NCBI GenBank assembly: GCA_029974835.1
Contig: JARKQN010000065.1
Location: 29,123 to 93,122, forward strand
Origin: Bacteroidales bacterium
GTDB lineage: Bacteria > Bacteroidota > Bacteroidia > Bacteroidales > VadinHA17
Length of the DNA: 64,000 nt
Direction of reading: 5' to 3'
The stretch's first letter is position 1. Each line of letters starts with the position of its first letter. Position numbers and translations under genes: made by a program. Of the stretch, positions 51,177-54,831 are shown one piece after another. The notes below the pieces were generated by a model that did no database searches, had not been told where the DNA came from, and worked only from the letters and a program-made list of their open reading frames with translations.

Positions 51177-52622
51177 TTAGTGAACTTTGAAATTCCATTT
51201 TGAGTTGTCGCTGTTGAAGTCAAACTTTGCAAGTGTCGGTGTGCTGTCGCCGATGGATACAAGAGCCAGTTTTTCATTGGAATTCGGAACCACTTTGGGC
51301 ATTATCCTGTAGGTTCCGTCAATAAGCTGATCAATTCGCCATAACTGTTCGGGCGCGCCAGTGAATTCGGGAACCGTTATCACTTCGGCATCGGCTGTTG
51401 CAGCCAGAGCCCTGTTGGTGCCTGCTATTACAATTTTATAATATGGCCCCCCCGGGTATCCGCCGGCTTCGGGCACTGCCGTGATGGTCCATTTCTGATG
51501 AGGGCGCATCATGTAATCGCCGATTCTCACGCCGATGTTTCCTGTTGGCCATGTGTTTATAACATCGGCAAGCTCCTGGTTGGGAACGGGTTTTAAGGGT
51601 TCGTCGGTATTACGCCCGAAACCCCTCATTCCGCCAGCCATTCTTACGAAGTCAACAACAAGTTCAAGGGCATATCCTCTTCTTTCAGATTCAATTTCGT
51701 AAGTTCCTTCCTTGAAATTATCTCCGGCGACAGGCCATCCGTTCTTCCATAGCAACGGTCTGATACCCAGTACGCTGCGTCCTCCCTGGTCCAGGTCGGC
51801 CTCATAGTGGCACGACATTTTCTGAACTCCGTCGCCAAGGTCCCAAAGTCCGAAATGACCTGGTCCGACGACCCTTCCTCCTGCTGCAAGCACCATTTTA
51901 CCGCCGCCTTTCAGCATGTCTCTTCCCATGTTATCGAGGTAAGGACCTGTTACTTTCCTGGAACGGCCTACAACTATATTATAGGTAGAGTTTGCTCCGT
52001 CGCAGCATGTACCGTGAGTGCCAAGAAGATAATACCAACCGTCGCGATACATTAATGTTGTTGCTTCGCAGTCAATGGCAATATCCAGTGCTTTATTGCC
52101 TTCAACGCGTTTACCTGTTTTGGGATCAAGTTCAACAAGGCGGATGAAGCCCCAGTATGTTCCGTATGTCATCCACAGGCGTCCATCTGTCGGATCAAGA
52201 AGAAGTCCGGGATCGATAGCATCATTATCTTCAATGCCGTCGGATGAAGCAACCACGACAGCTTCCGTGAATTTGAAATCGGGAGATTTCGGATCAAGGG
52301 TTTTGTTCCACATTGTAAGTATTCTTCCGTTATGGCCGCCGCCGAGTCCTCCTCCGGTAGCGCCATAGGCAAACAGGTAGCGGTCGCCGATTTTAATTAC
52401 GTCGGGAGCGGCTCCGCCGCCGGGCCGTGTTGCACCGCTGTTCCATACCCAGCCGTCTTCGGAAATTAATCCGCCTCCGCCCGTGCCATACGTGTAATAC
52501 TTCCCTTCACATTCCATTATTGTTGAGGGGTCGTGAATAAAAGGTCTCCCTGTCTGCGCGGTCAAAGTTCCAGCCAGCCAGAATGTTACAAGGACTGATA
52601 TAATAAATGTTCTTGTTTTCAT
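51177..52622 (-). CDS. Secreted GH43 arabinanase-like enzyme with C-terminal ricin-type lectin-like domain
   Basis: The 481-residue protein has a signal peptide (LTAQ, residue 23) and a five-bladed propeller: Asp in IHDPSTIM (base), Asp in NDAIDPGLL, Glu in IDCEATTLM (acid), and a His-containing VGPGHFG blade. About 130 C-terminal residues contain QKWTI and EQLWRI, the QxW pattern of ricin-type beta-trefoil carbohydrate-binding modules. It most resembles endo-arabinanases. It follows the jelly-roll protein by 51 nt, downstream of the xylanase. Confidence 0.88.
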   Translation of the reverse strand: MKTRTFIISVLVTFWLAGTLTAQTGRPFIHDPSTIMECEGKYYTYGTGGGGLISEDGWVWNSGATRPGGGAAPDVIKIGDRYLFAYGATGGGLGGGHNGRILTMWNKTLDPKSPDFKFTEAVVVASSDGIEDNDAIDPGLLLDPTDGRLWMTYGTYWGFIRLVELDPKTGKRVEGNKALDIAIDCEATTLMYRDGWYYLLGTHGTCCDGANSTYNIVVGRSRKVTGPYLDNMGRDMLKGGGKMVLAAGGRVVGPGHFGLWDLGDGVQKMSCHYEADLDQGGRSVLGIRPLLWKNGWPVAGDNFKEGTYEIESERRGYALELVVDFVRMAGGMRGFGRNTDEPLKPVPNQELADVINTWPTGNIGVRIGDYMMRPHQKWTITAVPEAGGYPGGPYYKIVIAGTNRALAATADAEVITVPEFTGAPEQLWRIDQLIDGTYRIMPKVVPNSNEKLALVSIGDSTPTLAKFDFNSDNSKWNFKVH

Positions 52623-52673: not shown

Positions 52674-53408
52674 TTATTCCAGGGTAATTGTGATATCTTT
52701 TACCGGTGCTCCTTTTTCATCAATGAAGCGAACACAGAAATCACTCATGCCAGGGCCGTTAATAACTGCCCCCCTGATAATATTCTTTCCCTTGTTGAGA
52801 GTAAGGCGTTGTGAAACACAATCATCCATTACCATTCGTCTGTCGCCGGAGAGTATCACGGCTTCCTTTCCGTTCAGCCACCACATTGAAGCTGAATTTG
52901 ACCCCACAGCCATTCTGACATTTTTCATTTCCTGCGGGCAGTTGACAACGGTAACCGCCCAATAAAGAACCCCGTATAACTGTTTGTTCAGTCCGTAGGA
53001 GAAACGAAACAGTTTTACGTTGAAATTTGTACTCTCCAGGGCGTGCCATTTCAACTCCTGTTCGCCTACTTTTACCTTGTCTCCGGCTTTGGGAAGAACG
53101 GTAAACTGGTTTGGGAAATACTCGGTTGTGAATGCAGTTCTTATATAGCTGTCAGTGAATACCGTATTGGAACGGTTCGGCTTGATTATGGGTTCAAGCA
53201 ACAGCCAGCGCTGGATGAAACCATCGGCGTCAGGTGTCTTTTTTGATTTAGTGGCAGGTACGAAGTAAGGAGCAAGACTTCTTGTAGTGTCGCTCTGGAC
53301 GGCACTAAAAGTAGTGTCTCCCGGTTTGGCAGAATACAAATTCAATCCCTCTCCTGCAAGGATCATGAATCCCGCCGTCAGCAATAATGTTTTTAAAATA
53401 ATTTTCAT
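52674..53408 (-). CDS. Secreted jelly-roll domain protein of the xylan locus
   Basis: The 244-residue protein has a signal peptide and a conserved segment DGFIQRWLLLEPI, then a beta-sandwich with WWLNGKEAV and LTLNKGKNIIRGAVI, like the jelly-roll domains of beta-galactosidases and esterases. The same module is often attached to acetylxylan esterases in Bacteroidota, but no hydrolase domain is present here. It may be a free carbohydrate-binding protein. It sits between the GH43 enzyme and the xylanase. Confidence 0.65.
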   Translation of the reverse strand: MKIILKTLLLTAGFMILAGEGLNLYSAKPGDTTFSAVQSDTTRSLAPYFVPATKSKKTPDADGFIQRWLLLEPIIKPNRSNTVFTDSYIRTAFTTEYFPNQFTVLPKAGDKVKVGEQELKWHALESTNFNVKLFRFSYGLNKQLYGVLYWAVTVVNCPQEMKNVRMAVGSNSASMWWLNGKEAVILSGDRRMVMDDCVSQRLTLNKGKNIIRGAVINGPGMSDFCVRFIDEKGAPVKDITITLE

Positions 53409-53592: not shown

Positions 53593-54831
53593 CTACTTTT
53601 TTAAGCTGGCCTCAATTACCGCGTTAAATGCCGGTTTCGGATTAAGCTGTCCGTCAAACAGGAGAGCATCCTGTCCTCTGCGCCACGACCTGGTATCGCT
53701 GAGCCCCCAGAAGGTTACCCGGTCAATTACATCCGCATGACGCATGAATATTTCGAACAGTTTTTTGTACACCTCTGCCTGTTTCTGGTAATTTTCGGGT
53801 GGTATGGTTCTGTTACCCTGATTTACTCCAAAAGCTCCGCTGTTGCTTCCTGTTGCGGTAACATCAAGTTCCGTAATGGAAACCCTCAGACCCAGGGCTG
53901 CATAATTCTCGATGGCTTTTTCCACATCTTCCAGATTGGTGTCAAGATGCCAGTGTCCCTGTATACCTACACCCGTGATAGGGGCACCTTCGGCAATGAG
54001 ACGTTTAAGAAGCAGCAGAGAGCTGGCGTGTTTTCCCTTGTTTTCAACCGCCCCCTGTTCGATGTTATAGTCGTTATAGTACAATTGGGCGTTGGGATCA
54101 GCTTCATGCGCCCACTTGAAGGCAAGTGTTATAACTTCGGGTCCCACATACTGATACCAGCTGAATGTACGGAGGTTTTCTGTGGTACCATCACCGCCGT
54201 CAGCAATCGATTCGTTGAATACATCCCATCCCATTATACGGCCTTTATATCGACCGACCACAGTCATGATATGACTTTTAAGACGTTCAAGTATGACTTC
54301 CTTGCTTGCCGGAGGGCCTGTAATGCCACGACCTCCGAAACCTTGAGCTCCCTGGCGCGGCTGACCGGCAGGATTTGCGCCTGCTGCAGGAGGAGCTGCC
54401 TGAGCAGCCTGAGGATTTGCCGGCTGGGCTGCAGGTCGGGCAGCTGCCGTGGCATTGGGATCTTCCTGGAAGAACCATTGAGGCGACTGGGAATGCCAGG
54501 CAAGGGTATGCCCCCAAACCTTCAAACCATTCTTCTGACACCAGTCAACCATAGCATCGGCGGTAACAAAGTTGTAAGTGTCCACCGTGGGATGAATTGG
54601 CTGCGGTTTCATGCAGTTCTCCGGCGTAATGATGTCGTAATGCATTTTAATATTGGCAGCCTCTGCATCCGATATGGATGTCAGATCATTTGCGGCACCA
54701 ATAAGGAATTTCCCGGCAAATGCTTCTTTTAAGGCTTTCGGCGGTGCCGGTTTTGCACTTACCTGACCGTTTGCTGCAACAGCTGTTGCAGCAATCAGAA
54801 CAATGCTGGTAATCAAGTTTCTGATAATCAT
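53593..54831 (-). CDS. Endo-1,4-beta-xylanase, GH10, with a low-complexity insertion
   Basis: The 412-residue protein has a signal peptide (NGQ, about residue 23) and a GH10 barrel: VWGHTLAWHSQSPQWFF, acid/base Glu207 in GWDVFNE and nucleophile Glu321 in SITELDV. It hydrolyses internal beta-1,4 bonds of xylan. Between WFF and SKEVILERLKSHI, where relatives have only a few residues, about 50 residues (124-175) are rich in Ala, Pro, Gln and Gly. The barrel motifs on both sides are intact, so the insert is probably a disordered surface loop. It is first in line with the jelly-roll and GH43 genes. Confidence 0.92.
   Translation of the reverse strand: MIIRNLITSIVLIAATAVAANGQVSAKPAPPKALKEAFAGKFLIGAANDLTSISDAEAANIKMHYDIITPENCMKPQPIHPTVDTYNFVTADAMVDWCQKNGLKVWGHTLAWHSQSPQWFFQEDPNATAAARPAAQPANPQAAQAAPPAAGANPAGQPRQGAQGFGGRGITGPPASKEVILERLKSHIMTVVGRYKGRIMGWDVFNESIADGGDGTTENLRTFSWYQYVGPEVITLAFKWAHEADPNAQLYYNDYNIEQGAVENKGKHASSLLLLKRLIAEGAPITGVGIQGHWHLDTNLEDVEKAIENYAALGLRVSITELDVTATGSNSGAFGVNQGNRTIPPENYQKQAEVYKKLFEIFMRHADVIDRVTFWGLSDTRSWRRGQDALLFDGQLNPKPAFNAVIEASLKK

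Follow-up and report, generated by a model that had tools for sequence, protein, structure and literature searches.

A low-complexity insert in a GH10 xylanase barrel, probably the disordered successor of an older cap

The 64,000 nucleotides of Bacteroidales DNA analyzed here (the window) encode a GH10 xylanase whose catalytic barrel is interrupted by a low-complexity insert. We consider it probable that this insert marks an old, permissive loop of one GH10 lineage, the beta3-alpha3 loop, which once held a small cap and has decayed into a tolerated, disordered spacer. The insertion would thus be long-standing: the loop would first have carried the cap, and several branches would have swapped it for disordered filler. 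Once a branch had lost the cap, in-frame replication slippage or unequal exchange may have let the sequence and length of the surface loop drift, while the enzyme tolerated an unstructured spacer beside its active-site cleft and kept catalysis. The gene and its parts are as follows.

53593..54831, minus strand: GH10 endo-1,4-beta-xylanase gene, 412 aa (Pfam PF00331, E = 7.8e-90; PDB and Foldseek matches)
54766..54831, minus strand: likely N-terminal signal peptide, residues 1-22, MIIRNLITSIVLIAATAVAANG (read by eye)
54496..54522, minus strand: barrel strand beta3, residues 104-112 (DSSP on the AlphaFold model)
54310..54465, minus strand: insert in the beta3-alpha3 loop, residues 123-174 (alignment with short-loop relatives; low pLDDT)
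54361..54456, minus strand: hypervariable Ala/Pro/Gln-rich tract, residues 126-157 (composition; divergence from the orthologue L039)
54310..54360, minus strand: putative cap relic, residues 158-174, PRQGAQGFGGRGITGPP (match to PRPSMSEFWRRSITGPM)
54250..54303, minus strand: helix alpha3, residues 177-194 (DSSP on the model, pLDDT 97-98)
54211..54213, minus strand: Glu207, presumed acid/base, in WDVFNE (nearly invariant)
53869..53871, minus strand: Glu321, presumed nucleophile, in ITELDV (invariant in 86 sequences)

The 412-aa open reading frame matches 142 PDB chains, the best of which are GH10 xylanases, and the barrel fold is supported by Foldseek, whose top 50 matches are GH10 structures throughout and reach a TM to target of 0.91. 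Known GH10 enzymes (PF00331; PDB 7nl2 and 1n82) share its barrel and its catalytic and subsite residues at 35-36% identity over the fold; the matched structures have few residues at the insertion site, whereas the window protein has about 50. The roles of Glu207 and Glu321 are those that we take from established knowledge of GH10. Among 86 relatives, the catalytic and subsite residues E321, N206, H108, Q291, H293, N72, and K75 are invariant, as are G107, H108, L110, W112, H113, and Q115 around beta3. Because Glu207 is nearly invariant (90% or more of the 86 sequences) and Glu321 and many subsite residues are fully so, the window protein is very probably active as an enzyme. It is likely a secreted xylanase with an N-terminal signal peptide: the model places a helix at residues 2-21, and the putative signal peptide, read by eye, lacks a lipobox cysteine. 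A plus-strand frame antisense to the gene (53737..54732, 331 aa) has no evidence of being a gene and was taken as a shadow frame.

The initial annotation described a low-complexity insert of about 50 residues in this GH10 protein, and the description holds: its residues 124-175 correspond exactly to 54307..54462. The insert does interrupt both the domain and the barrel. Pfam splits GH10 into two parts, one earlier and the other covering residues 176-407, and the top PDB matches stop at about residue 124 and restart at 170-177. The reported richness in alanine, proline, glutamine, and glycine is borne out by 39 of 48 residues, compared with 23 of 48 in the next richest window frame of at least 150 codons, and GC content is 0.66 in the insert versus 0.48 in the remainder of the gene. 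On the AlphaFold model, which was run on an alignment of 86 sequences (mean pLDDT 88.3, read as block means), DSSP places the insert in the loop between beta3 and alpha3. The beta-alpha loops of the barrel form the side that bears the active site; this loop follows a beta-strand, which puts the insert on the catalytic face, as had been proposed, and it may there affect substrate binding. Structure prediction, suggested earlier as a check, returns a disordered middle, with block means of 66, 54, 44, and 51 over residues 131-170 in a barrel mostly above 90; the residues of the insert are thus predicted to be largely disordered. Searching the genome with the insert found no match besides itself. 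A Pfam candidate over residues 127-178, the tyrosinase cofactor MelC1 (PF06236), scored 22.6 bits against a curated cut-off of 27 and was rejected as a composition effect.

What the loop once held is suggested by its relatives. A scan of genome contigs yielded 80 loci, aligned from GHTLAWH to WDVFNE. The earlier expectation that relatives have a short loop is right for GH10 in general, with 0-7 aa in aligned relatives, but fails for close relatives, all of which have an insert of 33-59 aa. Within the clade, 33/33 tree rows carry the insert (24 as a cap, 9 as low complexity), and the 18 outlying rows have 0-7 aa. This short form occurs in Planctomycetota, Verrucomicrobiota, one Melioribacter, and all more distant GH10 proteins aligned. 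The cap form is about 40 residues long, ends in DPNAPR(P/L)(S/T)MxE(M/F)WRxSIxG, and is hosted by Bacteroidota, Calditrichota, KSB1, Ignavibacteriota, and one bin labelled Deltaproteobacteria. Across 25 distinct cap inserts, the motif P-R-x-x-x-x-E-x-W-x-x-S-I-x-G keeps its P, W, and G in every case and its R and E in 24 each. The low-complexity form occurs in the window, in two orthologues of its genus (L010 and L011, identical to L039 and L068 of the contig scan), in several further Bacteroidota, and in one bin from Phycisphaerae; these inserts, that of the window included, are hypervariable and devoid of the cap tryptophan.

In predictions, the second half of the cap form folds into a small helical cap immediately ahead of alpha3. 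In a model of the cap-form protein L057, built on the same 86 sequences, residues 141-160 reach a pLDDT of 84-93 and include a helix at 151-158. No solved structure matched the cap by sequence. Close homologues all carry an insert, in most of them conserved and confidently folded, but the window branch and several others lack that fold; the refuting observation named in the initial annotation, a similar folded insert in all close homologues, is thus half borne out. The GH10 orthologue is present as a single copy in all 10 genomes searched, which makes the cap and the low-complexity tract alternative forms of one gene. A close orthologue was found in 3/62 genomes of the genus and in 5/393 sampled from the order; such patchiness suggests lateral transfer or frequent loss. 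Covariation between the cap and position 180 was not supported: Ala occurs in 22/24 cap forms and Val or Ile in 8/9 low-complexity forms, but this comes down to 3 independent pairs (p 0.5).

Most of the cap is missing from the window protein, but a trace of it persists. The last 17 residues of its insert, PRQGAQGFGGRGITGPP, are identical to the cap PRPSMSEFWRRSITGPM at 8 of 17 positions. None of 20000 shuffled versions of the insert matched the caps as well, on average, as the insert itself; with the last 6 residues excluded, 60 of 20000 did so. By this match, residues 158-174, which adjoin alpha3, are what is left of the cap, in worn form. The remainder of the insert has changed quickly. Window and L039 cores are 90% identical, compared with 18/35 identical positions plus 17 gap positions in the insert; in L050 and L055, a cap-form pair with the same core identity, 38/41 insert positions are kept. 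Judged from these comparisons, the tract evolves fast, and the insert much faster than the core.

The change from cap to low complexity seems to have happened repeatedly. On a tree of 52 proteins, with the insert columns excluded, the low-complexity state takes 4 changes, one of them the separate insert of a Lentisphaerae protein, and still 4 with the alpha3-beta4 segment omitted. Assuming that the cap is ancestral and never came back, one counts four losses on the best tree: in L065, in the window group, in the L040/L041/L045/L056 group, and in L078. We suspect segmental exchange within the gene, involving the insert and alpha3-beta4, in the group of L042, L047, L049, L054, L077, and L093 (the last from Flavobacterium flevense), which shares 91% identity with another cap group in alpha3-beta4 and only 64% in the N-terminal core. 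With such exchange three losses would be enough, and the low-complexity forms may thus be said to have arisen at least about three times. We infer the direction, from cap to low complexity, from conservation of the motif; counts of changes on the tree cannot tell gain from loss.

Pure neutral drift meets a counterpoint, in that no orthologue of the clade is without the insert, and the shortest insert is 33 aa; this speaks for some constraint on length. The same observation, retention of at least 33 residues in every clade orthologue while the sequence varies freely, favors a different reading: selection would act on the length of the disordered tract, not on its sequence, and the tract would work as a flexible spacer or lid at the cleft, where it might hold xylan, keep neighboring proteins off, or set solubility. 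Further support comes from a second GH10 of the genome, which, together with two orthologues (75-77% identical), keeps a P/Q/G-rich tract in its beta2-alpha2 loop. We hold selection for the tract to be unlikely. Residues 126-157 include no aromatic side chain that could stack against a sugar, no conserved motif is seen, and lengths range from 33 to 59. These residues also lack serine and have one threonine (T128), leaving little to glycosylate. The O-glycosylation motif of Bacteroidetes is D, followed by S or T, followed by A, I, L, M, T, or V, and it is absent from the window insert.

The second GH10 (G000:C94:95998-97266; L127:15998-17266) has a tract of about 55-60 residues, assigned to the beta2-alpha2 loop by alignment. 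In its orthologues in the genus, L145 and L146, the flanks are conserved and the middle varies; the distance between landmarks is 92, 86, and 73 in the three proteins. That a second xylanase has a comparable tract, in a different loop, suggests that such tracts on catalytic-face loops extend beyond one gene. Among 216 open reading frames of at least 200 aa in 349 kb sampled from the genome (antisense and overlapping copies included), a composition of at least 33/40 A/P/Q/G was reached only by the two GH10 proteins and one membrane protein of 1180 aa. A broader proposition, that disordered low-complexity tracts on catalytic-face loops are recurrent and selected in the xylanases of this lineage, replacing the ordered tryptophan cap as length-dependent flexible lids over the xylan cleft, strikes us as unlikely. 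The membrane protein (L129:13327-16866) has a Golvesin C-terminal domain region with the Gly/Pro/Ala repeat GGAPGGAPGGAPG. The second GH10 is flanked by an esterase (PF00756; L127:17293-18504) and a GH43/F5-F8C protein (L127:13750-15951), both with Gly- or Pro-rich stretches (GGFGGMGGRGAAAGAQAP; FGRGFGMGPGMRPGTAPATGP).

The initial annotation also raised a recent repeat expansion, that is, a loop in the window genome caught mid-growth by tandem duplication. The high GC content of the insert, its single 9-bp repeat, its 17 extra residues over that of L039, and the evident array of repeats in a Lentisphaerae relative could be read in this way. We nevertheless regard such an expansion as very improbable, because this site is also occupied by an insert in orthologues from Bacteroidota and from several further phyla, which makes the insert old at the level of the clade. 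Its synonymous codons are also mixed (for alanine, GCC 4, GCA 7, and GCT 5), and no exact DNA repeat within it exceeds 9 bp. No near-identical head-to-tail DNA copies were found in the insert: TRF reported 2.3 imperfect copies of 9 bp at a score of 35, and no tandem array above that score. The lack of a clean repeat in the window insert also counts against our preferred account, the decayed cap. As for an annotation or assembly error, in which a frameshift or misassembly in a fragmented draft (127 contigs) had created a false in-frame stretch, it can practically be dismissed, given the open frame, the conserved flanks on both sides, and the A/P-rich tracts at the same site in the separately assembled genomes L039 and L068.

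The Lentisphaerae GH10 (L071:2139-2326) carries its separate 120-aa insert in the same loop, with a perfect 45-bp tandem repeat in 2.4 copies; the 45-bp unit illustrates one way in which such a loop can grow. No insert, ordered cap, decay to disorder, and tandem-repeat growth make up a natural series at one loop, through which the role of a catalytic-face loop and the tolerance of the barrel for disorder can be tested. A further repeat array lies at L071:273-759 (63-bp unit, 7.6 copies).

Precedent exists for insertion at this place. In Xyn10C-like xylanases, among them Pm25, BACINT_04215, and BACOVA_04390, the beta3-alpha3 loop accommodates one to three CBMs, with CBM4 modules lying within the GH10 domain, and the inserted CBMs of Pm25 can be removed with catalysis retained (PMC7848910). 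The site is the same as in the window protein, where it was assigned by DSSP. The inserts differ: those of the Xyn10C-like enzymes are folded CBMs of about 160 residues each in Pm25, whereas that of the window is 52 aa of low complexity with no Pfam match to CBM4, CBM22, or a similar module. A place downstream of susC-susD-unk genes would be a further trait of the Xyn10C-like group; the neighboring window frames put through Pfam, a part of those in the window, gave GH43, DUF3795, and others, and no susC-susD-like gene. In composition and predicted disorder, the tract resembles the Pro/Ala/Gln linkers found between domains and the low-complexity regions of prokaryotes; linkers join two domains, whereas the tract joins two halves of one. 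It is also unlike the low-complexity regions of polysaccharide enzymes surveyed in PMC6821194, which are enriched in Ser and Thr. A literature search for GH barrels with inserts of disordered or low-complexity sequence found no relevant report.

Two further genes lie downstream of the xylanase.

52674..53408, minus strand: 244-aa protein (no Pfam match)
51177..52622, minus strand: GH43 protein with a ricin-B-type lectin domain (PF04616, PF14200)

The gene for the 244-aa protein perhaps shares a transcript with GH10. Homologues of both neighbors occur near GH10 orthologues at L044 (76% for the 244-aa protein and 83% for GH43-lectin), L079 (67% and 68%), and L074 (43% and 55%). The GH10 orthologues at L074 and L079 are of the short-loop form, and the cluster, which seems to be a small one for xylan or arabinoxylan degradation, would by this reasoning be older than the insert. 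The 244-aa protein has homologues in several phyla, encoded close to GH10 and GH43 genes.
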